Positions 15,879 through 54,921 of a stretch of DNA of 64,000 nt are shown one piece after another. How positions within the stretch are numbered: position 1 is the stretch's first letter; each line of letters opens with the position of its first letter. The notes under the pieces were generated by a model. The model did not search any database, was not told the DNA's origin, and worked only from the letters and a program-made list of their open reading frames with translations. Origin of the DNA: Bradyrhizobium quebecense (GTDB taxonomy: Bacteria > Pseudomonadota > Alphaproteobacteria > Rhizobiales > Xanthobacteraceae); the NCBI RefSeq assembly GCF_013373795.3, contig NZ_CP088022.1, forward strand, positions 1,674,001-1,738,000. The letters run 5' to 3'. Position numbers and translations under genes: made by a program.

Positions 15879-15906
15879 CCATTCAGGAACCGGAGCCGAA
15901 ATAGCG

Positions 15907-18822: not shown

Positions 18823-18905
18823 CGTCACTGAGCCATCGACTATTGGCCAACCGCCTTGGCCACGCGCAAAGATCGGGAACTCGCACCCGTTCGGGAGATC
18901 AGGAA

Positions 18906-27220: not shown

Positions 27221-27246
27221 CACGTGGCGTTCGCAGGGAGCCGATC

Positions 27247-30528: not shown

Positions 30529-30557
30529 GCCAGAGCTTTCATGCCAAAGTTCTCATG
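30525..30557 (-). repeat. 14-bp tandem repeat making a chain of coupled mini-frames
   Basis: On the minus strand the motif GCATGA occurs three times at 14-bp steps. The upstream gene ends GCA-TGA; ATGAGAACTTTGGCATGA is a 5-codon frame; ATGAAAGCTCTGGCATGA is another; the third GCATGA opens the IorB-like gene. Each ATG overlaps the preceding stop by 4 bases. Because 14 is not a multiple of 3, each repeat unit shifts frame and recreates the same stop-start overlap. Confidence 0.85.
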
Positions 30558-32712
30558 CTAAGGCCTCGAGCGCCGGACGCCGGCGATCACGCCGCCGTTG
30601 CAGCCAGCCGATCACGGCCATGGCGACCCTCGACTTGAACTTGTCCCAGCCGGTCGGATTGTGAATGACGTCTGCGCGATAGAACGACGGACACAGCACC
30701 GCCGCGTCCGCGACCTCGCCGCAATTGCCGCAACCGACGCAGGAATTGTCGATGGCCGCAACGGGATCGTCGCGCAAGGGATCGTCGAGCTGCTTGACCG
30801 AGAGCGACGGGCAGCCGGAGAGGCGGATGCAGGCGTGGTCGCCGGTGCAGACGTCCTCGTCGACGCCGAAACGTTCCTTGACGGTGCGAACGCCGTCCTT
30901 GATCGCCTTGCTGATCTGCGGCCTCACGCGGCGCTGCTTGTTCAGCATGCATTCGGAGGACGCGACGATGACCTTTGGGCCTTCCTCCTTGGTCGTCAGC
31001 GCCTCTTTCAGCGTGTCGCGCATCCGGCCGACATCGTAGGTACGGTCGATCTGCCGCACCCATTGCCCGCCGATGCCCTTCACGGCCTGCACGATCGAGT
31101 TGTTGGTGTTTCGCCGCTTGCTCGTCGCGCGCGACGACAGGATGTCCTGACCACCGGTCGCCGAGGTGTAGTAATTGTCGACGATGATGAAGACGCCGTC
31201 ATGCTTGTTGAAGACGGCGTTGCCGATGCCGCTGGTCAGCCCGTTGTGCCAGAAGCCGCCGTCGCCCATCACGGCGATCGAGCGCTTGTCGGCCTTGACG
31301 TTGAAGGCCGAGGTCGAGGCCGGGCCAAGGCCAAAACCCATGGTCGTCGCGCCGATGTTGAAGGGCGGCAGGATCGAGAACAGGTGGCAGCCGATGTCGG
31401 CGGAGACGTGGTGCTGGCCGAGCTCGCTCTCGACGAGCTTCATGGCGGCGAAGATCGGCCGTTCCGGACAGCCGGTGCAAAGGCCGGGCGGACGCGCCGG
31501 CACGACGTGCTTCAGCTTCTCGACCTCGGGGTGGCTGAGCACGGGGCTCGCGTCCGGCGCCGGTGGCCGATTGCCGAGCAGCCTCGGCTCGGTTTTCTCG
31601 ATGAACTCGCGCACGCCGCCGAGCAGCACCTGCGCGGTATAGTCGCCGCCCATCGGCAGCACGTCCTTGCCGTGGATGCGCGCCTGGATATCCTTGCGGC
31701 GCAGCACCGTGTTGATCGCCTGCTCCAGATATTCCGGCTGGCCTTCCTCGACGATCAGGATGGCGTCCTTGTCGAGGCAGAACTCGGCGACCTCCGTGTC
31801 GATCACAGGGTAGGTGACGTTCATGACGTAGAGCGGGACCTGCGTGTTGCCGTAGGCATCCGACAGCCCGAGATATTGCAGCGCGCGGATGACGTTGTTG
31901 TACATCCCGCCCTGCATGATGATGCCGACCTTGCCCTGCTTCGGCCCCATCCATTCATTCAGCCTTTGGTCGCGGACGAAGTTGATGGCCGCGGGCATCC
32001 GCGTCTTGATCTTCTCCTGCTCATGCTCGTAGGCCGCCGGCGGCAGCACGATGCGGCCGACGTCGCGCTTCGGATTGTTCAGGGCGTCCTTGATGGTGTG
32101 GGCCGGCCTGACATTGTCCTTGCAGGCAAAGCTGCCGTGCATGTGGCAGGCGCGGACGCGCACCTCCAGCATGACAGGGGTGTTCGAGGCTTCCGAGAGC
32201 TCGAAGCCCTTCTCGATCAGGTTGACGATGCATTCATGGTCAGGACGGGGATCCAGCAGCCAGATCTGCGATTTCATCGCAAAGGCATGGGTGCGCTCCT
32301 GCATGATCGAGGAGCCTTCGCCGTAATCCTCTCCGACGATGATCATCGTGCCGCCGGTAACGCCGCCGGAGGCGAGATTGGCCAGCGCGTCGGAGGCGAC
32401 ATTGGTGCCGACCGTCGACTTCCACGCGACCGCGCCGCGCAGCGGATACATGACGGAGGCCGACAGCATCGCCGCCGCTGCCGCTTCATTGGCGGAGCTC
32501 TGGAAGACGACGCCGAGATCGTCGAGCACGTCCTTGGCGTCGGCCAGCACGTCCATCAGGTGCGAGATCGGCGAGCCCTGATAGCCGCCGACATAAGCAA
32601 CGCCGGATTGCAGAAGTGCCTTGGTGATGGCGAGGATGCCTTCGCCGCGGAAGGTGTCGCCGTCGCCGAGCCGGAGATCCTCGACCTCGCGAGCAAAAGA
32701 CCGTTCAGCCAT
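30553..32712 (-). CDS. Indolepyruvate ferredoxin oxidoreductase-like, IorA-type subunit
   Basis: The 719-residue subunit has the pyrimidine-binding domain first (GGYQGSPISHLMDVL), the TPP pyrophosphate domain in the middle (AVMGDGGFWHNGLTSGIGNA) and a C-terminal ferredoxin-type region (CVGCGNCGEVADAAVLCPS). CTGCPERP is also characteristic. The family decarboxylates aromatic 2-oxoacids. The gene starts 32712 with a TGGAGGG ribosome site and its own strong promoter at 32736-32764. It heads an operon with the IorB-like subunit and both MarR genes, so the regulators probably control their own synthesis. Use on isatinate rather than indolepyruvate is an inference from the isatin-hydrolase-like gene at 45537. 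Confidence 0.9.
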   Translation of the reverse strand: MAERSFAREVEDLRLGDGDTFRGEGILAITKALLQSGVAYVGGYQGSPISHLMDVLADAKDVLDDLGVVFQSSANEAAAAAMLSASVMYPLRGAVAWKSTVGTNVASDALANLASGGVTGGTMIIVGEDYGEGSSIMQERTHAFAMKSQIWLLDPRPDHECIVNLIEKGFELSEASNTPVMLEVRVRACHMHGSFACKDNVRPAHTIKDALNNPKRDVGRIVLPPAAYEHEQEKIKTRMPAAINFVRDQRLNEWMGPKQGKVGIIMQGGMYNNVIRALQYLGLSDAYGNTQVPLYVMNVTYPVIDTEVAEFCLDKDAILIVEEGQPEYLEQAINTVLRRKDIQARIHGKDVLPMGGDYTAQVLLGGVREFIEKTEPRLLGNRPPAPDASPVLSHPEVEKLKHVVPARPPGLCTGCPERPIFAAMKLVESELGQHHVSADIGCHLFSILPPFNIGATTMGFGLGPASTSAFNVKADKRSIAVMGDGGFWHNGLTSGIGNAVFNKHDGVFIIVDNYYTSATGGQDILSSRATSKRRNTNNSIVQAVKGIGGQWVRQIDRTYDVGRMRDTLKEALTTKEEGPKVIVASSECMLNKQRRVRPQISKAIKDGVRTVKERFGVDEDVCTGDHACIRLSGCPSLSVKQLDDPLRDDPVAAIDNSCVGCGNCGEVADAAVLCPSFYRADVIHNPTGWDKFKSRVAMAVIGWLQRRRDRRRPALEALA

Positions 32713-40390: not shown

Positions 40391-41541
40391 TTATGGCGCG
40401 TACTTCCAGGCGCCGCCGGTCAGGCGGACCACCACCAGCGAGCGCTCGTCGACGCCGGTGACCGCACCGGGCTTGAAGTTATAGACGGCATGAACGCCAG
40501 GCAGTTCCTTGGTGCTGAGGATGGCGTCTCGCAGCGCCGCACGGAATTCCCTCGTGCCGGGTTTCGCGGTCTTCAGCGCCCGCTCGGCGGCGTTGGCAAA
40601 GATCAGCCAGGCATCGAAGGAGTAGGCGGAGAAGCCGTCGGTGGTCGGTATGTTGTGGGTCTTCTGGTAGACCGCGCGGAAATCGAGCGCGATTTTCTTG
40701 GCAAAGTGCTCATCCGGAAGCTGTTCGGCCACGATCACAGGCCCGGCGGAGACCTGAATGCCCTCGGCGGCCTTGCCACCGACCGTGACGAAGTCCGGAT
40801 TGACCAGCGCCACGGTGCCGTAGGTATTGCCCTTGAAGCCGCGCTCGGAGAGCGTGATGAGAGGCAGCGCGCCTTGCGTGCCGGAGCCGCCGATCAGCAC
40901 GGCGTCGGGACGTGCAGCCATGACCTTGAGGATCTGCGCGGTCACCGAGGTATCGGTGCGGGCATAGCGCTCGTTGGTCTGGACCTTGATGTCGTCAACG
41001 GGCTCGGCGGCCTTGGCCCCGTTGTAGACGAGGTCGCCCCACGCATCGGAGAAGCCGATATAGCCGATGTTCTTCATGCCGTCGCGCTTCATGCGGTCCG
41101 CGACGATCTTGACCAGGAGCGAAGCCGGCTGTGGCACCGCGACGACCCATTGTTCCGGCGATTCCGGAAGCTTGCCGATGGGCGAGATCGAGATCATCGG
41201 CACCTTCAATTCGCTGGCGACGGCCGCCATGGCGATGGTCGAGGGGGTCGTCGCGGTGCCGATCAGGAGGTCGACCTTCTCTTCCTCGACGAGCTTGCGC
41301 GCGTTGCGCGTCGCGGCCGACGGATCGGAACCGTCGTCGAGCTGGATCAGGCGGATGGTCTCGCCGTTGATCGTCTTCTTGTATTCATAGCGGCATTGAT
41401 GCCGCGCCCATAGGGGATGCCGATCGACGCGCCGTTGCCGCTCAGCGAGGTGACAAAGCCGATCGTGATGTCGGCTTGCGCAGCTGGTGCTGCGAAGACG
41501 CCGGCGACAAGTGCGAATAAGCCCAGGGTCTTCTGCCGCAT
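40391..41541 (-). pseudogene. ABC substrate-binding protein (LivK-like) with frameshift
   Basis: A complete binding-protein gene is present but broken by one missing base. Frame 1 starts at ATG 41541 (GGAGG 9 bases upstream) with a signal peptide, MRQKTLGLFALVAGVFAAPA, then ITIGFVTSLSGNGASIGIPY. At about 41389 it leaves frame; the second frame resumes with YEYKKTINGETIRLIQLDDG and continues to the end. Comparison with the intact paralogue at 46377 (385 residues) shows that adding one base gives 383 residues with no other gap. Either the gene is a recent pseudogene or the sequence has an error. The intact paralogue may serve the transporter. Confidence 0.8.
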
Positions 41542-42166
41542 TTGCGTTGTCCTCCGTTGATGCTGGATACGAATGTCTGGAAGCCGGGCAGGAGCCCGAG
41601 CTGTGCACGAACCGGTTGAAGGCATTGCTGCAGCGCCTGACGCCGGGCGCGGCGAGAGGGAAGTTCGCTTGGCCGGGGCGTCAGCGGCCATGGCGAGGCG
41701 TGCTGCTCGAATGGCAGGCGGGTCTGCGGCAACCGGCGTGCATCTGTCGAAGCGAAGGAAGACGAATGCCGCAGCCGCGATGCGCGACCGGCGACGATGC
41801 TGCCGGCCAATCAGGCCCGACGATAGTCCACGCGATTGAGTTTCTCAAAATCGGTGCCCTGCAACATCATCGTCATGGCCACCGCAGTGGCCGGTGGTCG
41901 ATTACTTAAAGCCTAAAGTATTCTCCGTGGCGCCGTCAACACGTGTCACGGGGCTGCCCGAAAAAAATGTTGCTGCATACAATTCCGTCAGAGTGCGCCA
42001 TTTCCTTCATCTTCTTCTCCCGAAAAATGGACCTTCTCGTCGCGATGGAGAGGGCCCCTTGGGGGCTCCATCGTGCGCATTTGACGGGTCAATTAGTTTA
42101 TGGTTGAAATATATTGGTCGGCAGGCCGACGGCCGATGCTCCTGTCACCGTTTGAGGAGAAGGGCG
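41542..42166. other. Intergenic region between the Liv operon and the racemase-family gene
   Basis: These 625 bases hold no gene I can support; the open frames are compositional. A small dyad TACTT-N8-AAGTA at 41903-41920 lies in an AT-richer stretch and could be an operator for one of the divergent operons. The TACATGTA palindrome seen at the other two promoters is absent. Confidence 0.5.
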
Positions 42167-42949
42167 ATGCGCATCTTCTGGCAGAGTTTCGTCGATGCGA
42201 GCGTGAACGCGCCATATATGGCGCGGCTGTCGGAGTACCTCAACAAGATCGCTGCGCCCGGTACGACGGTTCACGTCGAGGGCATTTCACCGCCGGATAG
42301 GGAGTTCGGTCGGCTTGCCGAATTACGCTGCGCGGTTCAGGCGATCGACAATGGCATCGCTGCCGAAGAGGCCGGGTTCGACGCCTTTGTGATGGGCCAC
42401 TTCCAGGATCCCGGACTCTATGAACTCCGCTCGACGCTCGACATTCCCGTGATCGGGACCGGCGAGGCGACGTTGCTCGCGGCCTCGCAACTCGGCCGGC
42501 GCCTCGGCCTCGTGACGCTCAATCCCGTCTTCGAGATCTGGCACTACGAGCAGGCTGAACGCTACGGCCTGGGTGATCGCGTCGTCCACGTGAGCGGGCT
42601 CGGTTGCAAGCCGGAGGATTTTGCAAGCGCGTTCGCCGGCGATCAGGCGGCCCACGCCCGAATGATCGAGGATTTCCTGGCCTGCGCCCTTCCGCTGGTG
42701 CAGCGCGGAGCCGACGTGGTGATCCCTGCCGGAGTGCTGCCGGGCCTCTTGATCGGGCGGGAGCACGGCCTGAAGGTCGGGCACGCGCCGGTCGTGAACT
42801 GCGCTGCGGTAGCGTTGAAGAGCGCCGAGATGTGGGTGCAGCTCAGACAACTCAATGGCACCGAGCCGAGCCGCGGGCCGAGCTTCAAGCGTGCCAGTGC
42901 GCTGGCGCGTGACGATTTCCGGGCGATGCTTGCGCGCAACAAGCGTTAG
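42167..42949 (+). CDS. Asp/Glu/hydantoin racemase-family protein
   Basis: The 260-residue protein has the family layout, with AEEAGFDAFVMGHFQDPGLY near the first active-site region, IPVIGTGEATLLAASQLGRR, and a C-terminal region GADVVIPAGVLPGLL followed by VVNCAAVALKSAEMW with a cysteine. Members racemise amino acids or isomerise maleate. A role as maleate or maleylpyruvate-type isomerase beside a gentisate-like pathway is possible; hydantoin-type activity on a nitrogen ring is another option. GAGGAG lies 7 bases before the ATG. Substrate unknown. Confidence 0.85.
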   Translation: MRIFWQSFVDASVNAPYMARLSEYLNKIAAPGTTVHVEGISPPDREFGRLAELRCAVQAIDNGIAAEEAGFDAFVMGHFQDPGLYELRSTLDIPVIGTGEATLLAASQLGRRLGLVTLNPVFEIWHYEQAERYGLGDRVVHVSGLGCKPEDFASAFAGDQAAHARMIEDFLACALPLVQRGADVVIPAGVLPGLLIGREHGLKVGHAPVVNCAAVALKSAEMWVQLRQLNGTEPSRGPSFKRASALARDDFRAMLARNKR

Positions 42950-43085
42950 CACCCGAACAGCCGCCCAGCTCTGGAGAGCCAGACGTGACGAGACCCGAGA
43001 AGGTGACCCTGTTCGAATACGACTCTTGGCAGTATCGATGTGTGGCTGGAGATGATCTGAGGCGGGCAGGCAAGGCAGGCGGCTG

Positions 43086-44264
43086 GTGAAAAATTCGCTG
43101 CGCACACCGTATGAGGGCATCGTGATGGCGGCTCCCGTCACGATCCCCTATGCGCGCTATTCCATCGAGAGCGCACAATGGTGGATTGGCCGCGCGCTGA
43201 GCGCGCTGGTCGCGCGGGCCGGCATCAAGGCCTCCGATATCGACGGCCTGTGCGTCTCCAGCTTCACCATGGGGACCGACAGCGGGATTGGACTGACACA
43301 GCATTTCGGACTGTGCGTCAGATGGCTGGACACTATCCCGCTCGGCGGCGCCAGCGCCATCGCGGCATTGCGGAAGGCGGCGCGCGCGGTGCAGGCACAC
43401 GATGCCGACATCGTGGCTTGCGTGGCCGGCGATACCAACCACGTCGATTCCTTCCGCCTGACGCTCGAGAATTTCTCGCGCTTCAATCAGGACGCGGTCT
43501 ATCCTTATGGCGCAGGTGGCGCCAATGCGAGTTTCGCGCTGATCGCGCGCAACTATATGCGGACCTATGGCGTCACGCGCGAAGACGTCGGCAGGATCGC
43601 GGTCGCCCAGCGCGCCAACGCGCTGCGCAACCCGCATGCGCTGATGAAGGCGCCGCTGACGATCGAGCAGTATCTGGCGGCCCGTCCCATTTCCGACCCC
43701 ATTCATCTGTTCGATTGCGTCATGCCGTGCGCCGGTGCCGAGGCCTTTCTTGTGATGCGGGACGAGACCGCGGCATCGCTTGGCTTGCCGGCGGCACGAT
43801 TGCTGTCGACGATCGAGCGGCACAACGCCTTCGCCGACGATCCGATGCAGGTGCGTGGCGGCTGGGCCATGGATCTCGGTGAACTCTACGCGATGGCCGG
43901 CGTGAAGCCTGACGATCTCGATTTCGTCCAGACCTATGATGACTATCCGGTCATCACGATGATGCAGTTCGAGGATCTCGGCTTCTGCAACAAGGGCGAA
44001 GGCGCGGCTTTCGTTCGTCAGCACGATCTGACGGTTGACGGCGACTTTCCGCATAACACCTCGGGCGGCCAGCTCTCGGCAGGGCAGGCCGGCGCCGCCG
44101 GCGCCTATCTCGGGCTCGTCGAAGGATTGCGGCAGGTCCTGGGAGAAGCCGGTCCCACACAGGTGAAGGATGCAAAGCTCGGTTTGGCCTCGGGCTTCGG
44201 TATGATCAACTACGACCGCGGCCTGGCATCGGGCGCGGTGATCTTTGCAGGGCCCGCGCGATGA
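43086..44264 (+). CDS. Thiolase-fold protein lacking thiolase catalytic residues (aldolase-like)
   Basis: The 392-residue protein has the SCP2/thiolase fold, but the reactive residues are replaced. The nucleophilic cysteine position reads LGGASAIAAL (~85). The GHP histidine motif reads SAGQAGAAGA (~331). The C-terminal cysteine position reads ASGFGMINYD (~368). It is directly followed by a DUF35-containing gene. This matches steroid-degrading aldolases of the Ltp2/ChsH2-DUF35 type, which cleave tertiary beta-hydroxyacyl-CoAs to a ketone and acyl-CoA. On that model it could cleave dioxindole-3-acetyl-CoA to isatin and acetyl-CoA. The residue changes are seen; the reaction is inference. The start is GTG. 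Confidence 0.82.
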   Translation: MKNSLRTPYEGIVMAAPVTIPYARYSIESAQWWIGRALSALVARAGIKASDIDGLCVSSFTMGTDSGIGLTQHFGLCVRWLDTIPLGGASAIAALRKAARAVQAHDADIVACVAGDTNHVDSFRLTLENFSRFNQDAVYPYGAGGANASFALIARNYMRTYGVTREDVGRIAVAQRANALRNPHALMKAPLTIEQYLAARPISDPIHLFDCVMPCAGAEAFLVMRDETAASLGLPAARLLSTIERHNAFADDPMQVRGGWAMDLGELYAMAGVKPDDLDFVQTYDDYPVITMMQFEDLGFCNKGEGAAFVRQHDLTVDGDFPHNTSGGQLSAGQAGAAGAYLGLVEGLRQVLGEAGPTQVKDAKLGLASGFGMINYDRGLASGAVIFAGPAR

Positions 44265-45502
44265 TCGATCCGATTGAGCCACCCCGGCGCAAGAACCCGC
44301 TGCTGCGGACGCGGCTTCCGACGTCGCCGCCGCGAGCGCGCAGCAGGACATCGCACGGGTTCACGCGCGCCGCCGCCGAAGGCCACTTCATGCTGCAGCG
44401 CTGCGAGGCCTGCGGCGCCTTTGCTTATCCGGCACGCGAGGCGTGCCCCGCCTGCCTGTCGGCGGGTCTCGCGTTCGTCGATGCGCCGCGCCGCGGCGCG
44501 CTGCTGGCCGAAACGACGGCACGGGTGCCGAGCGACGTTTATTTCCGCGAGCGGGCGCCGTGGCGCATCGGTCTCGTCAAGATGGACTGCGGTCCGACGA
44601 TGGTGGCGCATCTGCACGCGGACTGCGTCGAGGGCGCGCCCGTTCTCATGTCGTTTCAGCTCGACAAGAGCGGTCAGGCGGTGGCCTTTGCCCGACCCGA
44701 GGGGGAGACTCCCAACATGGCAGACGACAGGCAGTGGCGGGAAATGACGGCTGATCCGAAATTCCGGCGGGTGCTCGTGACCAACGGCCGCAGCCTGATC
44801 GGCCAGGAGGCCGTTGCGGCGCTGAAGGCCGCGGGCGCAAAGACGGTGTTCGTCGGCGTTGCCGAACCGTGGCGGCCGTTTGCCGGCGAGCAGCTGTTGC
44901 GCGGACAGCAAGGGATCGAGGTCGTCACGCTCGACGCGGCCGACGAAAAGTCTGCGACGGATCTTGCGGCCGACATCGGCGGCAAGGTCGATATCCTCGT
45001 CAACACGACGGAATATGTGCGGCCTGGCGGCCTCCTCGACCGCAGGGGCACGAGCATCGCGCGGGACGAGATCGACCAGGCCTATCTCGGCTTCATCAAC
45101 CTCGCGCAGGCCTTCGGTCCCGCGATGCGGATGCGGGGGGCGGATGGCGTCAACAACAGTGTTGCCTGGGTCAATATCCTGTCGGTCTATGCGCTGGCGA
45201 ACTGGCCCGCTTTCGGCGCCTACTCGGCATTGCAAGCCGCCTGCTTGTCGCTGTCGCATTGTCTGCGCGCTGAACTCAGGCCCGGTGGCGTCAAGGTGCT
45301 GAACCTGTTCACGGGGCCGGTCGACACCGAGTGGTTCCAGACCGTGCCGCCACCCAAGGTCGCGCCGCGCGCTGTCGCGCAGGCGATCGTGTCCGGCCTC
45401 CGGGGCGGGCTCGAGGAGATGTATGTCGGAGACGTCGCCGAGGAAATCAGGCAGCGCCTCGCCGCCAATCCGAAAGCGCTCGAGCGCGAGCTCGACAGGT
45501 AA
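44261..45502 (+). CDS. DUF35 (Zn ribbon/OB-fold) fused to an SDR-like domain
   Basis: Residues ~40-155 are a DUF35 domain: zinc ligands C48, C51, C62 and C65 in CEACGAFAYPAREACPACL, then an OB-fold. Residues ~165-413 are SDR-like (RRVLVTNGRSLIGQEAVAAL, VNILSVYALANWPAFGAYSA). The SDR catalytic lysine is replaced: the YxxxK position reads YSALQ. The glycine motif is also weak, so the SDR half may not be an active dehydrogenase. DUF35 proteins form complexes with thiolase-fold enzymes and bind acyl-CoA. The ATG overlaps the stop of the thiolase-fold gene, supporting a shared complex. Confidence 0.82.
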   Translation: MIDPIEPPRRKNPLLRTRLPTSPPRARSRTSHGFTRAAAEGHFMLQRCEACGAFAYPAREACPACLSAGLAFVDAPRRGALLAETTARVPSDVYFRERAPWRIGLVKMDCGPTMVAHLHADCVEGAPVLMSFQLDKSGQAVAFARPEGETPNMADDRQWREMTADPKFRRVLVTNGRSLIGQEAVAALKAAGAKTVFVGVAEPWRPFAGEQLLRGQQGIEVVTLDAADEKSATDLAADIGGKVDILVNTTEYVRPGGLLDRRGTSIARDEIDQAYLGFINLAQAFGPAMRMRGADGVNNSVAWVNILSVYALANWPAFGAYSALQAACLSLSHCLRAELRPGGVKVLNLFTGPVDTEWFQTVPPPKVAPRAVAQAIVSGLRGGLEEMYVGDVAEEIRQRLAANPKALERELDR

Positions 45503-45536: not shown

Positions 45537-46319
45537 ATGCAAAGCAAAAATCTCCTGGAGCTCGCAGGTGCGATCTCGTCTGGCGCGGTGCGCGTTGTCG
45601 ATCTGACCTTCACGCTCAGTCCGGATTTTCCGGTCATCGTGCTGCCGCCGGAGTTCGGCCAGGCAGCTCCCGTCCGGATCCAGGAGATCTCGCGATATGA
45701 CGGTCGCGGTCCGGCCTGGTACTGGAACAACGTGACATTCGGCGAGCACACCGGCACGCATTTCGACGCGCCGATCCACTGGTTCACAGGCAAGGATCTG
45801 CCGAACAACGCCGTCGACACGATGCCTGCCAAGGACATGATCGCTCCGGCGTGCGTCATCGACTGCTCGGCTGGCGCAGCGCAGGATCCGGATTTCCTGC
45901 TGACCGTTCCGCTCGTCGAAGCCTGGGAGGCGAAGCACGGGCGAATTGCCGCGCGGCACTGGGTTCTGCTGCGTACCGACTGGTCGAAGAAGGGCTGGCG
46001 CGACTACGCCAACCTCGGGGATGACGGCGCGCACACGCCGGGTCCGAATCCGGCCGTGATGAAATGGCTGGTGGAGGAGCGCGGCATCATCGGCTTCGGC
46101 ACCGAGACGATCGGCACCGACGCGGGGCAGGCCGGCCATTTCGAGCCGCCTTATCCGGCGCATCACTTCCTGCACGGCGCCGGCCGATATGGCCTTCAAT
46201 GTCTTTGCAATCTCGATCAGCTTCCCGCCACCGGCGCCGTCATAGTGGCTTCACCCCTGAAGATCCAGAACGGTTCCGGCAGCCCGCTGCGCGTGATCGC
46301 GTTAGTTTCAGCAGACTGA
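45537..46319 (+). CDS. Cyclase-family metal hydrolase, isatin hydrolase-like
   Basis: The 260-residue protein has the metal-binding motif GEHTGTHFDAPIHW (~70-83), typical of the PF04199 family that includes kynurenine formamidase and isatin hydrolase. The C-terminal pattern (GIIGFGTETIGTDAG, then RYGLQCLCNLDQLPATGAVI and KIQNGSGSPLRV) is closer to isatin hydrolases than to formamidases as I recall them. It should open the lactam of isatin to isatinate. AGGAGG lies upstream of the ATG. It follows the DUF35-SDR gene by 34 bp in the same operon. Confidence 0.82.
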   Translation: MQSKNLLELAGAISSGAVRVVDLTFTLSPDFPVIVLPPEFGQAAPVRIQEISRYDGRGPAWYWNNVTFGEHTGTHFDAPIHWFTGKDLPNNAVDTMPAKDMIAPACVIDCSAGAAQDPDFLLTVPLVEAWEAKHGRIAARHWVLLRTDWSKKGWRDYANLGDDGAHTPGPNPAVMKWLVEERGIIGFGTETIGTDAGQAGHFEPPYPAHHFLHGAGRYGLQCLCNLDQLPATGAVIVASPLKIQNGSGSPLRVIALVSAD

Positions 46320-46376: not shown

Positions 46377-47534
46377 ATGATCTCGATGAAGACCCTGCTG
46401 GCTTCTGCCGCGCTGCTTGTCGCCGTTCCGCAGGTCGGGCAGGCGGAGATCCTCGTCGGATTCGTCACCGGCCTCAGCGGGCCGGTGTCGTCGATCGGGA
46501 TTCCGAATGCAAAAGGATTAGCGGCGGGCGAAGCCTATATCGGCGAAGTCGGCGGTGAGAAGCTCCGCGTCATTCAACTCGACGACGGCTCCGATCCCAC
46601 GGCGTCGGCGCGTAACGCGCGCAAGCTCGTCGAGCAGGAGAAGGTCGACATCCTCATCGGCACGTCGGGTGCGCCGCAGACGCTGGCGATGGCGACAGCC
46701 GCGATCGAGATGAAGATTCCAATGATCGCGGTGTCGCCGATCGCGGCGGTGCCATCAGGCGATGGCGGGCCTTGGGTCGTGCAGACGCCACAACCGACGC
46801 CGCTTCTCGTTCAGGGCATCGTCGATCATATGAAGGCGCGAGGGTTGAAGACCGTCGCGTTCATCGGCTTCTCCGATGCCTTCGGCGACCTCATGTACGA
46901 TTCGCTGACGCAAAGCGCCAAGGCGGCCGACATCAAGGTCATCGCCAACGAGCGATACGCCCGATCGGATTCGTCGGTGACCGCCCAGGTGCTGCGCGCG
47001 TTGGCGGCCCACCCCGACGCCATCATGCTCGGCGGCACGGGAACGCCGGGAGCGTTGCCCGTGATCGCCTTGTCCGAGCGTGGCTACAAGGGACCGCTCT
47101 ACGGCAACCACGGACTCATCAGCGCCGATTTCCTGCGGCTCGCCGGCAAGGCGGCCAACGGAATTATCTGCCCGACCGGGCCGGTGACCGCGGCCGAGCA
47201 GCTTCCAGCCAGCAATCCGATCCAGAAGGTTGCCTTGGCGTTCCGCGCGGCCTTCGAGAAGGCGAATGGCGAGGCGCCGACCGACTCGTTCTCATCCTAT
47301 TCATTCGACGGTTGGCTGGTGTTCGTCGATGCAGCCAAGCGCGCGCTGGCAACCGGCGCCAAGCCGGGCTCGCCGGAATTCCGCACCTCGCTTCGCGAGG
47401 CGCTGTTCACCACCAAGGAGCTGGCCGGGACCCAGGGCGTCTACTCCTACACGCCCGCGGATCGCCACGGAGTCGATGCGCGCGCGCGGATCCTGGTTCA
47501 GATCGAGGACGGGAAGTACAAGCTGCTGCCCTGA
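46377..47534 (+). CDS. ABC transporter substrate-binding protein (LivK-like, intact)
   Basis: The 385-residue protein starts with a signal peptide (MKTLLASAALLVAVPQVGQA) and has the periplasmic binding protein fold of the LivJ/LivK family (ILVGFVTGLSGPVSSIGIPN, LRVIQLDDGSDPTASARNAR). It is a close paralogue of the frameshifted gene at 40391-41541 and shares YARSDSSVTAQVLRALAAHP-type segments with it. It probably delivers the pathway substrate to the LivH/LivMG/LivF transporter. It ends the operon starting at 42167 or 43086. Confidence 0.9.
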   Translation: MISMKTLLASAALLVAVPQVGQAEILVGFVTGLSGPVSSIGIPNAKGLAAGEAYIGEVGGEKLRVIQLDDGSDPTASARNARKLVEQEKVDILIGTSGAPQTLAMATAAIEMKIPMIAVSPIAAVPSGDGGPWVVQTPQPTPLLVQGIVDHMKARGLKTVAFIGFSDAFGDLMYDSLTQSAKAADIKVIANERYARSDSSVTAQVLRALAAHPDAIMLGGTGTPGALPVIALSERGYKGPLYGNHGLISADFLRLAGKAANGIICPTGPVTAAEQLPASNPIQKVALAFRAAFEKANGEAPTDSFSSYSFDGWLVFVDAAKRALATGAKPGSPEFRTSLREALFTTKELAGTQGVYSYTPADRHGVDARARILVQIEDGKYKLLP

Positions 47535-47833: not shown

Positions 47834-48400
47834 TCAGACACGGTCATAACCGGCTGCGGCGAAGAAGTTCAGGCACTCTTGGGCGGTGAAGGCGGTCAGG
47901 GCGGTGGCAATAGCGTTGTCCAAAGCCTCGATTGATCTGGCGGCGGCCTTTCGAAGTGCGGCTTTGAGCTTGGCGAAGGCCATTTCGATCGGATTGAGGT
48001 CGGGCGAATAAGGCGGCAAATAGAGGAGCTGGGCGCCCACGGCATCGATTGCGATGCTGACCTCGGCGCGCTTGTGTGCTGCGAGATTGTCCATCACCAC
48101 GATGTCGCCGGGCCTGAGTGTCGGCACGAGGACTTGCGTCACGTAAGCCTCGAACGCCAGACCATCCATGGGACCGTCAAGGACCATCGGCGCAGTCATG
48201 CCGGTCGCTCTGAGCGCGCCGACGAAGGTCGTCGTCTTCCAATGACCATGCGGGAGCGCTGCGACACAGCGCTGGCCGTACGGCGAGCGGCCATAGCGCC
48301 GCGCCATCTTGGTCGAGGCTCCCGTCTCGTCGATAAACACCAACCGATGGATGCCGATCTCAGGCTGAGATGCCTTCCACGCCGCGCGTTCAGCGGCCAC
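47834..48400 (-). CDS. IS630 transposase, catalytic part (second frame)
   Basis: The frame holds the DDE catalytic triad: [20 protein letters not shown] (first D), [13 protein letters not shown] (second D) and [19 protein letters not shown] (E). Reading back past the ATG at 48400 the same frame continues as [20 protein letters not shown], which belongs to the transposase. The true product is therefore a fusion with the frame at 48390-48785, joined at the A8 run (48433-48440 on the minus strand). Confidence 0.85.
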
Positions 48401-48785
48401 GTCCGGCCGATCCTGCTCGCTGGCGTGCGATGTTTTTTTTGAACGTGATGTTGCGGCGATCGAAGAATCGCCAGACCACGCTCGGCACGAAACGCTCGCC
48501 GTGGACTTTGAGGAGATGGTCAGCGATCTCGGCCAGCGTCATGTCAGGCGTAGCCTTGACCAGGGAGAGGATCTCCGCAGCATGACCCTCGATCCGAGCT
48601 GAACGTCTGTCTCCGCCCTGCGCTCCCGCCTCACAAGCGCCGGTGCTGCGCCATTCGTTGACCAGTTCGATCGCTGTCGATGGCGCTACGCCGAACCGGC
48701 CGGCGGCGCCCCGACAGCTCATGCCTTCCTCTTCCACAGCCCGAATAATGCGAAGGCGAAGGTCCGGCGAGAGCGGCTTAGCCAT
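48390..48785 (-). CDS. IS630 transposase, DNA-binding part (first frame)
   Basis: The 131-residue frame contains helix-turn-helix regions ([40 protein letters not shown]) and the linker [20 protein letters not shown]. It reaches RRNITFKK at a run of eight A residues, then leaves the family sequence and stops. Seven A residues would give an uninterrupted transposase ([13 protein letters not shown]), so the split is a one-base insertion, repaired at most by slippage on the homopolymer. Confidence 0.85.
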
Positions 48786-48840
48786 GGGGGCTGGCCTCCA
48801 TCACCAGCCCTCAGGGTGAATCACGATTTGCCTCACAAGG

Positions 48841-49203
48841 GAATCTGGAGGGTTCTGTGAGGTCGCGCTCACGCGAGGGCGCGGCAGGCGCTTATGACGC
48901 GACCTCATTGAAGCCGGATTGAACGAAGGCGCGGGAGGCTATTCGCGGTTTTGCAGCTATGGGGATTGTTCGAGATCGCCATGCCCGATCTGCTGGCTCG
49001 GCGCGTGAGGCAGAGACACAGGAGTGCGCATCCTGGAAGAGTTGAGATCAGACGCGCTTCGCCTGAGATCGCGATAGGCCTTTTGCTGCATCGGACGGTT
49101 GTTGTCGCGCAGTGTGACAGCACGGATTCGACATCGTCCGCGATGATCGAGACGCTGGGAGCGAAATGACGAATGATGATCGTCGTGCACGACATGACTT
49201 GGC
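48841..49203. other. Junction between IS630 and the IS91-type element
   Basis: No gene is supported here. A GC-rich hairpin-capable stretch (GCGCTCACGCGAGGGCGC near 48867) and the terminal sequence of the IS91-type element probably lie in this interval, but I cannot fix the end. Confidence 0.4.
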
Positions 49204-50454
49204 TCACGATGTGTCGCATCGGAACGGTGATGTTCGAGGGCTGGGGCGTCTGAAGCTATGTCGAAAGCGCTCAATGATGCGCATGACGCCACCACAATCG
49301 GGACAGGCAGGAACCTCGGCCCGGGTTTGAGCCTCCGAATCCACAGGCGACGGCTGGCCATCGTTTGGGGCTGTTCGCTCATGATCGAGAAGTTCGCGGC
49401 AAAGGGCGAGCTTGGCAGCGCGATGGCGGTTGGCCATGAAGCCGAAGTGGCGGATGCGGTGGAAGCCGTCAGGCAGCGTATGAAGCAGGAAACGGCGAAT
49501 GAACTCATCGGGCTTGAGATTCATGATCTTTGTCGCGCTGTTTTGGCGATAGTCCTTCCATGAGAAGGCGACATGATCGTCGTCGAGTGCGACGAGCCGG
49601 CTGTTGGCGATCGCGACGCGATGGGTGTAGCGGCCGAGATAGGCCAGGACCTGTGCGGGTCCGCCGAAGGGCCGCTTGGCGTAAACAACCCAGTTGATGC
49701 GTCGCATGGCGTCGAGGTGGGCCGCAAAGGCAGCCGGCTCGGCCAGAGCTCCGAGATCGCCGAAGAAACGCAAGGCACCGGAGTTGAAGGCTGCCGACAG
49801 ACGTTTGAGAAAAAGTGTGCGAAATAGTCTGGACAACGGTTTGACGGCCAGGAAGAAGTTCGGTCGGCAAGCGGTCCAGCGCGCGCCATCGGGCGAGAGG
49901 CCGCCACCCGGAACGACGCAATGGACGTGGGGATGATGCATCAGCGTCTGTCCCCAGGTGTGGAGGACGGCGACGCCGCCGATCGCACCGCCGAGCCGGC
50001 GTGGATTGGCGGCGAGCGTCGTCATCGCCTCGGCGGCAGCCTTGAACAGGATGGCATAGACGACGGCCTTGTTCTGGAAAGCGATCGCGGCGATCGGTGC
50101 GGGAAGTGTAAAGACGACGTGGAAATAGGGAACCGGAAGCAGGTCGGCTTGACGCGCGGCGAGCCACGCGGCTCGGGCTCTCCCCTGACACTTCGGACAG
50201 TGCCGATTGCGGCAGGAATTATAGGCAACGCGTGTCGTGCCGCAGTCGTCGCAAGCCTGCATGTGGCCGCCGAGCGCCTCGGTCCGGCACGCAACGATCG
50301 CGCTCATCACGCGCCGCTCGACCCGCCCCAGATGACCGGCATGTACACGGCGATAGGCGTCGCCATGCCGGCACAGAATATCGGCAATCTCGATGGCGGG
50401 CCTGTTGGAGCGGATGTCGGAGCGGGTCATGACCCGCATCCCGCTGCGGGTCAT
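49204..50454 (-). CDS. IS91-family (HUH) transposase
   Basis: The 416-residue protein has the N-terminal zinc finger (CDDCGTTRVAYNSCRNRHCP), the HUH metal motif in LMHHPHVHCVVPGGG, and the catalytic tyrosine region YLGRYTHRVAIANSRL. It acts by single-strand nicking and rolling-circle transposition. Its ATG overlaps the stop of the tyrosine recombinase gene (ATGA), so the two are made together. It looks intact. Confidence 0.92.
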   Translation of the reverse strand: MTRSGMRVMTRSDIRSNRPAIEIADILCRHGDAYRRVHAGHLGRVERRVMSAIVACRTEALGGHMQACDDCGTTRVAYNSCRNRHCPKCQGRARAAWLAARQADLLPVPYFHVVFTLPAPIAAIAFQNKAVVYAILFKAAAEAMTTLAANPRRLGGAIGGVAVLHTWGQTLMHHPHVHCVVPGGGLSPDGARWTACRPNFFLAVKPLSRLFRTLFLKRLSAAFNSGALRFFGDLGALAEPAAFAAHLDAMRRINWVVYAKRPFGGPAQVLAYLGRYTHRVAIANSRLVALDDDHVAFSWKDYRQNSATKIMNLKPDEFIRRFLLHTLPDGFHRIRHFGFMANRHRAAKLALCRELLDHERTAPNDGQPSPVDSEAQTRAEVPACPDCGGVMRIIERFRHSFRRPSPRTSPFRCDTS

Positions 50455-51311
50455 CCAGGTGGCGTCACCTCCAGCGACAGGCGATCGAGCGGGCTCTGCG
50501 TCGCTCGGATCGTATCGGTGGCGACCTGCGTGTAGCGCGCTGTCGACGACAAATTATTGTGCCCGAGCAAGACCTGGATGATCCGGATATCGGTTCCGTT
50601 CTCGAGAAGATGTGTCGCGAAGCTGTGGCGCAGCGTGTGCAGCGTGACGCGCTTGGTCAGGCCCGCAGCCTTCACCGCCGACCGGCAGGCGGCATGCAGC
50701 ACGGTCTGATCGATCGGATGATCTTCGTCACGACCAGGGAACAGATAAAGCCGCGGCCGGGCGAGCCGCCAGTAGGTGCGCAGGATGCCCAGCAGCTGGG
50801 GCGACAGCATCACGTTGCGATCCTTCGCGCCCTTGCCGTGGCGCACCTGGATGACGCCGCGGGCGCTGTCGATGTCTTCGATCCGCAGTCCCGCAACCTC
50901 CGAGGCCCTGAGCCCGGCCGCATAGGCGGTGGTGAGCGCGGCGCGGCTCTTCAGGCTCGATACCGCTTCAAGAAACTGAACCACTTCGTCGGCGCTGAGA
51001 ACGACCGGCAGCTTGCGCGGTTCTCGCGCATAGGGAATGCGCTCTGGGATGAGCGCCTCGCCGAGCGTGACGCCGTAGAAAAACCGTAGCGCACAGACGA
51101 TCTGGTTCAGCGCCGGCCATGAGATGCCGGTCGAGACCAAATGCACCTGGAAGGCGCGGACGTCTTCCAGCTCTAACCGGTCAGGCGATCGGCCAAAATA
51201 GCGGCTGAACTTCGAAACCGCGCTGATGTAGGATCTTTGCGTCGCCGGCGACAGATTGCGGACGGTCATGTCTTCGATCATGCGGCGGCGAAGAGGGCTC
51301 AAATCGGCCAT
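50451..51311 (-). CDS. Tyrosine recombinase associated with the IS91-type element
   Basis: The 286-residue protein has an N-terminal SAM-like core-binding domain (LSPATQRSYISAVSKFSRYF) and a catalytic domain with arginine in YAAGLRASEVAGLR, HTLRHSFATHLLENG and the nucleophilic tyrosine in SSTARYTQV. AGGAG lies 7 bases before the ATG at 51311. It is coupled to the HUH transposase rather than to phage genes, so it is probably part of the element and not the prophage integrase. Confidence 0.9.
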   Translation of the reverse strand: MADLSPLRRRMIEDMTVRNLSPATQRSYISAVSKFSRYFGRSPDRLELEDVRAFQVHLVSTGISWPALNQIVCALRFFYGVTLGEALIPERIPYAREPRKLPVVLSADEVVQFLEAVSSLKSRAALTTAYAAGLRASEVAGLRIEDIDSARGVIQVRHGKGAKDRNVMLSPQLLGILRTYWRLARPRLYLFPGRDEDHPIDQTVLHAACRSAVKAAGLTKRVTLHTLRHSFATHLLENGTDIRIIQVLLGHNNLSSTARYTQVATDTIRATQSPLDRLSLEVTPPG

Positions 51312-51594
51312 CTCGATACTCCTGTCTGAGGGGGTGGGCTCCAACACCCACATCCTCTCAGCCAGGAGGCGATCTATGTGTAGCGCGCAAAATCGAATGG
51401 CACCGCGCGCAAGTTCGTTTGTCACCCCATTGGTTAAGGCTCGTATACCCCGTTCATGGCGTCGACATGGGGTGCCAGAAGGCCACAAACGCGGGCTTGA
51501 CCGCGGTTGGCACACGGATCTTCAGGCTGTTATCGGACTCTACATGGCTGTAGAAAACGGCTAGGATCAGAGTATTCAGCCAAGGTGCTTCTGA
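51312..51594. other. Right flank of the IS91-type element
   Basis: No gene is supported in this stretch. The right end of the IS91-type element should be here, but I see no diagnostic terminal sequence that I can name with confidence. Confidence 0.4.
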
Positions 51595-52082
51595 TTGCCG
51601 CCGTTACAGTATTGGTTTTCCGGCGCCGCTATAGGCGCATTCTTGGCGCTCGTCGTCAGCGTCACGACGTTGAGCTGGGCTTGGTTTTCGGCAGCACGGA
51701 ACGAGCATAAATCGTCCCAGTCTACCGAGGCGGCCGATCGTGAAAAGGCCCGTCTTGCCGTAATCAGATCCCACCTTCAAAGTTTTTACATCGAGGGCGG
51801 CTCGCTCATGGATAAGCCGGTGCCGCCCAATGCGTCGCCAGAGCTGATCGCGCAATACACAGCGGAAGCCGAGACATGGGCAACCAAGGCCAATACCTGG
51901 ATAGGCACAGAACTGGGCAAGGGGCTTCAGCTAGGTTTGTCGATCGCACAGCCTATCCTTCGAGGTTCATGAGCGGCGTTGCTCCTGAAGTCGGTAACGC
52001 CAAAATCTTTATCGCAGATCTCCGTCAAAACCTTGCAAAGATGATCGAGACCGATGCTTGGGACTCAGGAGCGGCGAGATAA
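51595..52082 (+). pseudogene. Small membrane protein gene, probably frameshifted
   Basis: The first frame (51595-51972) starts at TTG and encodes one membrane segment (GAAIGAFLALVVSVTTLSWA) and a helical soluble part ending AQPILRGS. The neighbouring frame then continues naturally as FMSGVAPEVGNAKIFIADLR and QNLAKMIETDAWDSG to 52082. A one-base change near 51968 would join them. There is no in-frame codon upstream of the TTG before a stop, so the 5' end may also be damaged. I do not recognise the family; a holin- or spanin-like phage role is possible but unsupported. Confidence 0.4.
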
Positions 52083-52154
52083 CCTTGCTGAGCAAGGCGA
52101 AGCGTGCCCGTGAAACGTCGCCGGAGTATCCGCTTTTGTGGCCACAAGCGGTTC

Positions 52155-52514
52155 CTAGACTAGGGCATTGGCACGGACCAGCAGGCTGTCGACCTGGTCG
52201 TCGGACAGGCCCACGACGGTGATCATGTGCTGTACTAGGCTGTCGGACCGCCTGATCTCCGTCGCCAGGTCCCATTCCTCCTGCACGTTCGCATCCGCCG
52301 CAATCGCGGCCTTCACGGAAGCCCAGGTGCCAAGCTCATCAAAGGCCCGCTTCAGGCCGAGCTTGGTGCAGGAACTCGGCACACGGGCCGGTGGTTCAAG
52401 GAACGCAATCACCGCCGGGTCGTCGTCGTCGACTTGCTCAGTCTCGAAGCCGGGCTGCTCGCAGGCGAACCATCCAACTATTTTGCCTGCATCGTCTCGT
52501 ACTACAAATCCCAT
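52155..52514 (-). CDS. Small hypothetical prophage protein downstream of the tail fibre
   Basis: The 119-residue acidic protein starts at ATG 52514, with AGGAG about 13 and AGGA 5 bases upstream. It begins GFVVRDDAGKIVGWFACEQP, has an acidic stretch (EQVDDDDP), and ends in a helical region. It lies 11 bases after the tail-fibre stop on the same strand, where phages often encode tail-fibre partners or tail assembly chaperones. I do not recognise the family. Confidence 0.65.
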   Translation of the reverse strand: MGFVVRDDAGKIVGWFACEQPGFETEQVDDDDPAVIAFLEPPARVPSSCTKLGLKRAFDELGTWASVKAAIAADANVQEEWDLATEIRRSDSLVQHMITVVGLSDDQVDSLLVRANALV

Positions 52515-52525
52515 GCTGTCCTCTC

Positions 52526-54388
52526 CTATTCGAACGGATCGTACCAACCGCGCGTGACGAGTCGCAGGGTCGTGTTTGCAACGGTCGAGCGCGCCGCGAC
52601 TTGCCGCGCGGTATCCGTCCAAACGCGGACTTCGGTCATGTTGCCGCTGGTTGCAGCTGATGCCTCAACACCAGTGCCGCCGAGGGAATAGCTGGGGGCG
52701 TTGTCAACCATAGCGGTCTCGTGAACCCACCAAACCGTATTTTGCGCTGTGTTCCAGGCGATAACCGTCAGAATCGCTTGCACTTGCACGCCGGGCGGAA
52801 TGCTGGCCAGTGCGAACGTTTGCAGCGTCGTTCCGATTGTGGTGTTGACGTCAAGAGAAACTCCGGGCCACCAGAATTCGCGCCCTCGCTGCAGCAGTGG
52901 CGAGAACGTGCTCGATGCCGTTGACCACCAAACCGCACCGATGCGCCTGCAAAGCGTGTAACCAGATGGAAGCGTCGGCGCTGTCGCACTCAACGAAATA
53001 AGAATATCGGTGTTGCCGCTGCCTACCGGATTTCTGATGATGAATACATGATAGAAGCCGGCCGCGATTGCTCCGGTATCCAAAGCACCGTTGCCGTTTC
53101 CGGGATTCCATGCAGCGCTCGTCTTGCTGAGCGCGGCGCCAAGGCTAATCATGTCGGCTTGATTGCGATCACACGCCACACCAGCTGATACGCTGAAACT
53201 CGCGATGCCCGTCGACGTGATCTTCAATCCTGCCAAGGGCAGCCCGCGCAGCAATGCGGGAATGCCGAGATTGACCACCGCAGCCGGCTTGTTCGTAAGA
53301 TCGGCAAGATTAAGGCTCGACGTCAGATCGCCCGCGCCGGGCTGACCAACGTGGTTAAAATTCCAGTCTCCGTACGTGCCGACACCATTCGCCTTGTCGA
53401 CCGTCATCGTAATGACTTGCACAACAGGATCGTAGAGACAAACGCCCTCCATCCAATTGGTCGGCGAGGCATTCGACGATGCGCGCAGCCGGACGCCGTT
53501 CTGATACGAGAACCCCGTGACCGCCGAGAACACTTTCGTTCCCGTGCCGATCGCCAGTGCCGTCGCGCTCGTTGCCTCCGTTGCACTCTGACCGATAAGC
53601 AGCCATTTGCCGGCCGCCAGGTCGGTTGCGAAGTTACCGGACAGATGCGGCACGACGCACTGATAGGTATTTTTGTTGATCGGGTGCACGACGATCGACG
53701 CCGGCGGACCCACGACGTAATTTTGGCCGGTCGCCCATGCCGCAGTTTGCAGCCACGGCAGCGGCCCCGTCGGACCTGTATCGCCCTTGCTGGCGAGGAC
53801 TTGCCAGTACGTCGCGTTGGGCGGCACATGCCCCGCGCCTGGTGTGTCGTTAATCCAGATGTAGGACGAGCCATTCAGCGTCGCCACGTCCATCAGGCCG
53901 TAGGTATGTGCGTTGTCGTATGGTGCGGGCTCGCCGAGCGGCTTGGAGATGCCCTGGTAATTCCAGACGCCTGACTCCTTTACCCATTCCTTTCCGCTCG
54001 ACGCCTGCCGCGCATACTGCCCTTCGTCGCCTTTGGACGGATCAGGCGTCGCCCGATCGGAGCGCACGAACACAAAGAAGCCGTCAGTCTCGAGCGCGCC
54101 GGTCAGGCGGATGACCTCGGCCGATGTCTGCGATCCGGAGAAGCGCAGCGGACTGCTCTGCAGAATTTGATACGCAGTGCCGGCCGGCACATTTGCATAG
54201 GGCCATTTCGCAATGCTGAGATGGGTGTCGTCCGTCACGTCGAGCAGAGTGACAGGACCGAAACCGTCGACCACCAGCGTGTCGAATCTCATGACGTTCG
54301 AGGCCCATAGCGGACCGCCGCCGCCCGTCACGACTTGGCCGCTGCTGGCGACCGATACGGTTCCGGTCGAATATATCAAATCGGGCAT
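52526..54388 (-). CDS. Phage tail fibre protein
   Basis: The 620-residue protein is rich in Ser, Thr, Gly and Ala with low charge, as in trimeric fibres. It contains a short collagen-like run (KGDTGPTGPLPW), a carbohydrate-binding-like segment around VGPPASIVVHPINKNTYQCV, and LTNKPAAVVNLG, a segment type common in phage fibres. The C-terminal ~150 residues are probably the receptor-binding tip. I start at ATG 54388 because the longer frame to 54565 overlaps the upstream gene heavily. It probably sets host range. Confidence 0.82.
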   Translation of the reverse strand: MPDLIYSTGTVSVASSGQVVTGGGGPLWASNVMRFDTLVVDGFGPVTLLDVTDDTHLSIAKWPYANVPAGTAYQILQSSPLRFSGSQTSAEVIRLTGALETDGFFVFVRSDRATPDPSKGDEGQYARQASSGKEWVKESGVWNYQGISKPLGEPAPYDNAHTYGLMDVATLNGSSYIWINDTPGAGHVPPNATYWQVLASKGDTGPTGPLPWLQTAAWATGQNYVVGPPASIVVHPINKNTYQCVVPHLSGNFATDLAAGKWLLIGQSATEATSATALAIGTGTKVFSAVTGFSYQNGVRLRASSNASPTNWMEGVCLYDPVVQVITMTVDKANGVGTYGDWNFNHVGQPGAGDLTSSLNLADLTNKPAAVVNLGIPALLRGLPLAGLKITSTGIASFSVSAGVACDRNQADMISLGAALSKTSAAWNPGNGNGALDTGAIAAGFYHVFIIRNPVGSGNTDILISLSATAPTLPSGYTLCRRIGAVWWSTASSTFSPLLQRGREFWWPGVSLDVNTTIGTTLQTFALASIPPGVQVQAILTVIAWNTAQNTVWWVHETAMVDNAPSYSLGGTGVEASAATSGNMTEVRVWTDTARQVAARSTVANTTLRLVTRGWYDPFE

Positions 54389-54921
54389 GGGATACCGGGC
54401 TCCGAAGTCAGGCTGGATTGAGAGATCGCGTCGATGCGGGCCAAGTGCTGGCGAAGGTTCGCCGGCGTCTCCGCGCCCGTCGGATGGCACGGCCAGTTTC
54501 GCACCATAGATGGCGCGTCGGGTTGCTTGGATAGATCGCGAAGCTGCTGCCGATATACCGCCCACGTCTCACGGTTCGCGACATTGCGGTCAGTGACCAT
54601 GTACTGGTCGGTCGCCGATAACTCGGCAGCCACCGCCAGCTTCACAAGAAGCGCTAGCCGCTCGATCAGAAGCACCGCCTGGTCTGCCGCAGGCCGTTTG
54701 ACGATCGTCAGCGTGGCCAGGTCCACCATGTCGACGAACGGATCGATCTCAACGACGGATGCAACGCCGCTACGAGCTAACCCAGGCACATCTGGCCCGT
54801 AGAGGGCATCTTGGATTCGAAGGATGGCATGGTTCGGCAAGTGGCTCTTGCCATCGACTGGTTCGAGCGTTCCCCACGATCGGATGAACCCCGTCGCGGT
54901 GCAGTAGTGGATAACGGTCAT
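54376..54921 (-). CDS. Phage tail assembly chaperone-like protein
   Basis: The C-terminal third of this 181-residue protein reads NRETWAVYRQQLRDLSKQPD followed by RNWPCHPTG, the pattern of Phage_tail_APC proteins (W-x2-YRQ-x2-RDL and a final WP-x2-P). The N-terminal part is unrecognised. The gene overlaps the tail tip gene by 4 bases and lies directly before the fibre gene, the usual place for a fibre chaperone. Confidence 0.65.
   Translation of the reverse strand: MTVIHYCTATGFIRSWGTLEPVDGKSHLPNHAILRIQDALYGPDVPGLARSGVASVVEIDPFVDMVDLATLTIVKRPAADQAVLLIERLALLVKLAVAAELSATDQYMVTDRNVANRETWAVYRQQLRDLSKQPDAPSMVRNWPCHPTGAETPANLRQHLARIDAISQSSLTSEPGIPCPI

Follow-up and report, generated by a model that had tools for sequence, protein, structure and literature searches.

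IadG, a thiolase-fold protein of a Bradyrhizobium auxin-degradation locus, lacks the thiolase active site and is probably an acyl-CoA retro-aldolase

IadG is encoded at positions 43086-44264 (+ strand) of a 64,000-nucleotide stretch of the 9.17-Mb genome of Bradyrhizobium quebecense (contig NZ_CP088022.1, G000:C1:1674001-1738000), hereafter called the window and used for all coordinates unless a locus is named. Databases file this 392-residue protein among the thiolases, whose active site it no longer has. Its open reading frame, Pfam matches, predicted structure, fold search and residue counts point to a thiolase-fold acyl-coenzyme A (CoA) aldolase, and it very probably serves as a retro-aldolase that splits dioxindole-3-acetyl-CoA into isatin and acetyl-CoA. 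Such a cleavage had been suggested in an earlier note on this DNA, and it gains support from the clustering of genes for an isatin hydrolase, an acyl-CoA ligase and other iad proteins, as well as from genetic work in Variovorax (PMC12633357).

The iadG reading frame is uninterrupted and starts with GTG. The Pfam family Thiolase_C_1 matches its product with 118 bits, and the score of Thiolase_N, 22.2 bits, lies under the cut-off of 26.4. IadG was aligned with the HDxF thiolases 7yvy and 6esq, a pair of classical thiolases encoded in its own genome, and the steroid aldolases CtSal and TcLtp2; in IadG the nucleophilic Cys is replaced by Gly88, the His of the GHP motif by Gln334 and the second Cys, that of the CxG motif, by Ala368. 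The three changes read by eye in the earlier note are thus borne out, and no intact Cys-His-Cys set, which the note had named as a finding that would speak against it, was found at the aligned positions. In the same alignment, the His of the HDxF motif corresponds to Tyr284 (codon 43935-43937, + strand) and the Cys of the SCP2-type HDCF motif to Asp286 (codon 43941-43943, + strand). With SCP2-type and classical thiolases IadG shares the fold, but not the Cys nucleophile, the GHP His or the second catalytic Cys (G88, Q334 and A368/D286 in the alignment and in the residue counts).

Conservation was examined in 102 IadG rows, comprising the window and the fetched loci with at least 55% identity; L113 (one internal stop), L123 (partial) and the loci L009, L022 and L028, which duplicate a gene already counted, were omitted. 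Gly88, Asn147, Tyr284, Asp285, Asp286, Tyr287, Gln329 and Gln334 are identical in all rows, and Arg200 is conserved in 101. Position 368 is occupied by Ala, Val, Ile or Thr and never by Cys, with one gap. Of the 120 homologs listed in a database search, 119 were used (P0072 was dropped for length), and they preserve all the invariant residues apart from a single Gly at 286. Because these residues are identical in 102 of 102 rows, the changes at the catalytic site are due neither to chance nor to sequencing error. Seven IadG paralogs are found in the same genome, five of which read YDCF, YDSF, YDSF, YDAF and YENF and two HDCF, the thiolase type; the YDDY motif of IadG occurs in none of the seven.

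Sal and Ltp2, steroid aldolases that depend on a DUF35 partner, are the solved structures nearest to IadG in both sequence and fold rank. A tree, the sequence scores and the ranking by fold all place IadG with them and not with thiolases, even though the fold score by itself scarcely distinguishes the two groups. A grouping with proteins of non-aldolase function, also named beforehand as a counter-argument, was not seen. IadG displays the features of the Sal/Ltp2 class, namely a thiolase fold closest to theirs, a Gly in place of the Cys nucleophile, the YDxx Tyr and an adjacent DUF35 gene. Ltp2, which the earlier note had taken as the model, does belong to the same enzyme class, but the closest characterized relative is Sal. 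The top match in both sequence and fold is CtSal, which together with CtShy(DUF35) forms the bile-acid side-chain aldolase of Comamonas testosteroni (PDB 9MYR; PMC12329534). Like CtSal, IadG combines a thiolase fold devoid of the Cys nucleophile with a DUF35 partner, and it would be expected to release acetyl-CoA from a β-hydroxyacyl-CoA. The Tyr of the YDxY motif, Gln347, Gln352, Gly89, Asn162 and Arg216 of CtSal are matched in IadG, and all 102 rows have the catalytic Tyr, the two supporting Gln residues and, where thiolases carry their Cys nucleophile, the Gly. In contrast, the essential catalytic Cys304 of Sal, which is the Cys of the YDC(Y) motif of its subfamily, corresponds to Asp286 in every row; Sal Gln161 is replaced by Ala or Pro, and Tyr165 by Phe. 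The partners also differ, that of CtSal being fused to a MaoC hydratase and that of IadG to a domain of the short-chain dehydrogenase/reductase (SDR) type, and IadG is expected to act on an indole rather than a steroid and to yield a ketone rather than an aldehyde.

The aldolase TcLtp2-ChsH2(DUF35) of Thermomonospora curvata (PDB 6OK1) has in common with IadG the thiolase fold, the DUF35 partner and the Tyr of the YDxx motif. It cleaves the side chain of a C17-hydroxylated acyl-CoA, with a ketone as product, and this chemistry is that proposed for IadG. However, its motif is YDHF instead of YDDY, and the IadG stretch aligned with its general acid, Tyr344, reads GQLSAGQAG, without a Tyr that could correspond to it. 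Outside steroid metabolism, a precedent is offered by IpfD and IpfE, the latter a DUF35 protein; they are likened to IadG by their description, not by their sequences. In ibuprofen breakdown, a retro-aldolase step has been assigned to the thiolase-type IpfDE, which would remove propionyl-CoA from an aromatic acyl-CoA diol and whose products, propionyl-CoA and a catechol, differ from those expected for IadG (PMC9195938). The kind of enzyme is therefore already known, since steroid and ibuprofen pathways employ it, and the suggestion that IadG represents a new use of the class is valid for indole catabolism, according to the literature searched, but not as a first use outside steroids. In the parts of the open-licence literature that were covered, we recognized no paper assigning such an aldolase to indole catabolism. 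What is new is this assignment, along with the Tyr/Asp pair and a partner bearing a pseudo-SDR domain.

The partner, IadH (44261-45502, + strand, 413 residues), consists of a zinc ribbon and an oligonucleotide/oligosaccharide-binding (OB) fold of the DUF35/ChsH2 C-terminal type (zf-ChsH2, PF12172; OB_ChsH2_C, PF01796), followed by an SDR domain (PF00106) without the catalytic residues; its structure was predicted with a mean local confidence score (pLDDT) of 85.5. The stop codon of iadG and the start codon of iadH overlap in an ATGA sequence (44261-44264, + strand), and of the 75 loci in which the two genes occur together, 67 show the same 4-bp overlap. Translational coupling to a gene with DUF35 domains is thus as the earlier note described it, except that the partner is a DUF35-SDR fusion and not DUF35 alone. 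The four Cys residues of the zinc ribbon are conserved in 88 of 88 sequences.

The SDR half was examined in 319 IadH sequences, namely 96 from the loci and the window and, from two protein searches, 103 of 120 and 120 of 120 listed rows (L013, L016, L040 and 17 database rows were dropped for length or truncation). The TGxxxGxG glycine motif is found in none of them, and the catalytic Tyr and Lys occur together only in L118. The Tyr is retained in 146 rows, including L118 and the window, where Ser308 and Tyr321 are present and Gln325 occupies the Lys position; 48 rows besides L118 retain the Lys with another residue at the Tyr position. All 120 rows listed for the Aromatoleum query have Trp at the Tyr position, and IadH of Ruegeria pomeroyi reads P, T and A at the aligned Ser, Tyr and Lys positions. 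As a control, the SDR dehydrogenase IadJ of the same cluster (27217-27975, + strand; Pfam adh_short_C2) has intact TGGNSGIG and YSATK motifs, and the solved SDRs 3m1a and 1cyd retain YSATK and YSSTK. The ratio of nonsynonymous to synonymous substitution rates (dN/dS), calculated against seven loci, is 0.043-0.297 for the SDR half and 0.081-0.234 for the DUF35 half; the SDR half is under purifying selection. Because its catalytic residues have been lost and yet purifying selection persists, IadH, despite its annotation as an alcohol dehydrogenase, probably has no dehydrogenase function and is more likely a scaffold subunit with a pseudo-SDR domain than a reductase.

How the reaction might proceed can be proposed from these comparisons. 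IadF (25604-27220, + strand), an acyl-CoA ligase forming adenosine monophosphate (AMP; Pfam AMP-binding and AMP-binding_C), is expected first to make dioxindole-3-acetyl-CoA, a tertiary β-hydroxyacyl-CoA, on which IadG would act together with the DUF35 half of IadH. By analogy with CtSal, Tyr284 would deprotonate the hydroxyl at C3, and cleavage of the C3-CH2 bond would turn C3 into the ketone of isatin. Asp286, which is aligned with Sal Cys304, might protonate the acetyl-CoA enolate; neither free CoA, nor a nucleophilic Cys, nor NAD(P)H would be required. IadI (45537-46319, + strand), whose residues 6-258 of 260 match isatin hydrolase A (5nnb) with 397 bits and an E value of 2.9e-118, would then open isatin and pull the reversible cleavage forward. 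IadH would be a structural subunit, its DUF35 domain completing the aldolase and its SDR domain being a conserved pseudo-dehydrogenase. Somewhat less confidence attaches to what precisely Asp286 and the SDR half do than to the cleavage reaction itself.

Published data on Variovorax bear on this scheme. IadG is essential there and acts between dioxindole-3-acetic acid and anthranilate, and deletion of iadF, iadG, iadH or iadI causes C10H9NO4, the formula of dioxindole-3-acetate, to accumulate and anthranilate to drop (PMC12633357). Isatin, dioxindole, isatinate and anthranilate had been detected in cultures in earlier work (PMC9613470). Deuterium tracing has revealed that four ring deuteriums are retained downstream, and a compound of formula C8H7NO3, which in our reading is that of isatinate, was shown not to be N-formylanthranilate. 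A retro-aldol step would explain the Variovorax data because it sends the CH2 group off with acetyl-CoA without redox chemistry. Given the reactivity of the isatin ketone, the step is expected to be reversible, and this might be why loss of iadI backs up dioxindole-3-acetate, and a scaffold role of IadH would explain the similar phenotypes of the iadG and iadH deletions without invoking a redox step.

A different assignment has been published in a 2025 preprint, in which Variovorax IadG was taken by Jiang et al., from annotation only, to be a "ketothiolase" (EC 2.3.1.16) and IadH an alcohol dehydrogenase, the side chain being removed reductively to yield dioxindole before IadI acts; the terms aldolase and DUF35 are absent from its main text (PMC12633357). 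This is very unlikely in view of the absence of the thiolase Cys and His from all 102 IadG rows, and of the second Cys from 101 with one gap. Moreover, a tertiary alcohol is, by established chemistry, no thiolase substrate, the SDR site of IadH is degenerate, also in the IAA-degrading R. pomeroyi, and IadI is an isatin hydrolase by sequence. One observation nevertheless weighs against the retro-aldol scheme. When iadI is deleted, and likewise in the iadCDEFGH_JK2 strain, it is not isatin but C8H7NO2, the formula of dioxindole, that builds up (PMC12633357), as the published assignment would have it; we attribute this to a probable side reduction of isatin. On the loss of redox activity in IadH, caution is called for by the solved SDR nearest to it, 5u4s, which has Leu at the Tyr position, yet whose record is titled as an NADP complex. 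These points also fit the idea that IadG is an aldolase but that the SDR half of IadH is, in some lineages, an active oxidoreductase interconverting isatin and dioxindole, as do the dioxindole detected in Variovorax cultures and the residues kept in L118 and the 48 Lys-bearing rows. Such activity appears unlikely, though less so than a ketothiolase, with the glycine motif lost in 319 of 319 sequences and the Tyr-Lys pair in 318, whereas IadJ retains both motifs.

IadG might also be an aldolase for another 3-hydroxyacyl-CoA, its proximity to an isatin hydrolase being incidental. Module-bearing genomes in which no close IadD was found (see below), as well as a relative of about 41-43% identity in a different context (L126), would agree with this, but the recurrent association with isatin hydrolase in alpha- and betaproteobacteria, together with the Variovorax genetics, which put IadG in IAA breakdown (PMC12633357), makes it the least probable of the alternatives. 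Relatives of IadG with YDDY at about 40-45% identity were observed in L017, L018, L019 and L126 and are perhaps further aldolases. In L126, a stand-alone OB-fold gene adjoins the relative, along with CoA transferase, AtuA-like and ornithine cyclodeaminase genes; in the three other loci, an adjacent zinc-ribbon-like frame was recognized by its motif only.

In 80 loci fetched with an IadG profile, IadH is next to IadG in 75 and isatin hydrolase is present in 73, spanning alpha- and betaproteobacteria. In the five loci without IadH (L040, L053, L077, L092, L113), the contig ends just past or within iadG; in L104 it ends just past iadH, and L112 is the only locus without isatin hydrolase despite ample room. 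The gene order of the Aromatoleum loci L107 and L108 is A-B-C-D-E-F-G-H-I-J-K, and that of Variovorax, whose consecutive gene identifiers run C, D, E-F, G, H-J, K2 (PMC10374108), agrees with it, the Variovorax locus being of the same type as that of the window (PMC12633357, PMC9613470, PMC10374108). In Aromatoleum evansii, the genome of L107, one TAG was observed within an IadD-like match (G767 C264:132918-134231). A plasmid search for IadG returned 37 records, one of which has 41% identity and the other 36 at least 57%; among them are Roseibium aggregatum and R. pomeroyi DSS-3. R. aggregatum is presumably the former Labrenzia aggregata, a source of solved isatin hydrolases. R. pomeroyi degrades IAA, and its MarR binds IAA (PMC9613470).

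No IadD relative was found at an E value of 1e-60 in 17 of 20 module-bearing genomes queried, a chosen rather than random set (L063, L081, L082, L083, L084, L085, L091, L093, L094, L097, L100, L102, L103, L105, L111, L112 and L115). Their module is G-H-I, or G-H only in L112. Genes for a copper amine oxidase, aldehyde dehydrogenases and an amino-acid permease neighbor the module of L082. In L063, iadI is followed downstream by genes for an AMP ligase and for a bifunctional flavoprotein with FAD_binding_3 and Oxidored_FMN domains (16926-19244 and 14458-16119), and then by an acyl-CoA dehydrogenase frame. This flavoprotein architecture is presumably that of 2-aminobenzoyl-CoA monooxygenase/reductase, and the arrangement agrees with anthranilate as product.

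The window locus is an iad-type auxin-degradation locus, with counterparts of IadC-F, IadG-J, IadK, MarR and IorAB. About 10 to 20 kb upstream of iadG, besides iadF and iadJ, lie the genes for the ferredoxin-type oxygenase reductase IadC (22814-23764, +; Fer2, NAD_binding_1), the Rieske oxygenase large subunit IadD (23783-25123, +; Rieske, Ring_hydroxyl_A), the small subunit IadE (25120-25596, +; Ring_hydroxyl_B), a MarR-family regulator of uncertain start (28469-28960, -; MarR) and two subunits of a 2-oxoacid ferredoxin oxidoreductase, IorB-like (28963-30528, -; POR, DUF6537) and IorA-like, a thiamine diphosphate enzyme (30553-32712, -; TPP_enzyme_C). Isatinate being a 2-oxo acid, a direct path to anthraniloyl-CoA through this oxidoreductase (28963-32712) is conceivable; against a need for it, iadC-K2 is enough for anthranilate formation in Variovorax (PMC12633357). 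An Asp/Glu/hydantoin racemase-like protein (42074-42949, +; Asp_Glu_race) is encoded just before iadG. Two related solute-binding proteins of ATP-binding cassette transporters (both Peripla_BP_6), one at 40391-41608 (-) and the other, IadK-like, at 46377-47534 (+), flank the cluster on opposite strands; in loci with a single such protein, the other window query matches that same protein at about 49-56% identity. To the right of the cluster (47834-58000), transposase-like and integrase-like frames and then long phage-tail-like frames were recognized in translations read by eye.

A Bradyrhizobium homolog 93% identical to IadG (P0036) is named Blr3429 in one source. In B. japonicum, blr3428, numbered directly before blr3429 and annotated as an organic hydroperoxide resistance protein, was induced 17.1-fold by IAA, and bll3410/bll3411 (IorAB) were induced as well (PMC3788728). 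An OsmC-like gene is found directly upstream of iadG in L063 (9548-9976) and L093 (9522-9983). It is absent upstream of iadG in the window, where the interval 42950-43085 amounts to merely 136 bp.

We advance, with slightly more doubt than belief in the picture as a whole, that IadG might represent a third branch of thiolase-fold acyl-CoA aldolases, adapted in evolution to small and heteroaromatic substrates and marked by a YDD motif, its Tyr/Asp pair standing where the other branches have Tyr/Cys or Tyr/Tyr. Its obligate partner IadH might be a DUF35 scaffold whose conserved but redox-dead SDR domain shapes the active site or passes isatin to isatin hydrolase, and the G-H-I module might also work in bacteria without IadCDE, which could use plant-made dioxindole-3-acetate. 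The C-C cleavage of the isatin route in bacterial auxin breakdown has so far been assigned from annotation only. If the present assignment is correct, two enzymes would be misnamed in a pathway that is being engineered into root bacteria, IadG being an aldolase and IadH no dehydrogenase. The change from thiolase to aldolase, familiar from the breakdown of steroids, would then have been employed again on a plant hormone and with another catalytic acid, and it would offer an enzyme with which C3-quaternary oxindoles could be formed or cleaved.
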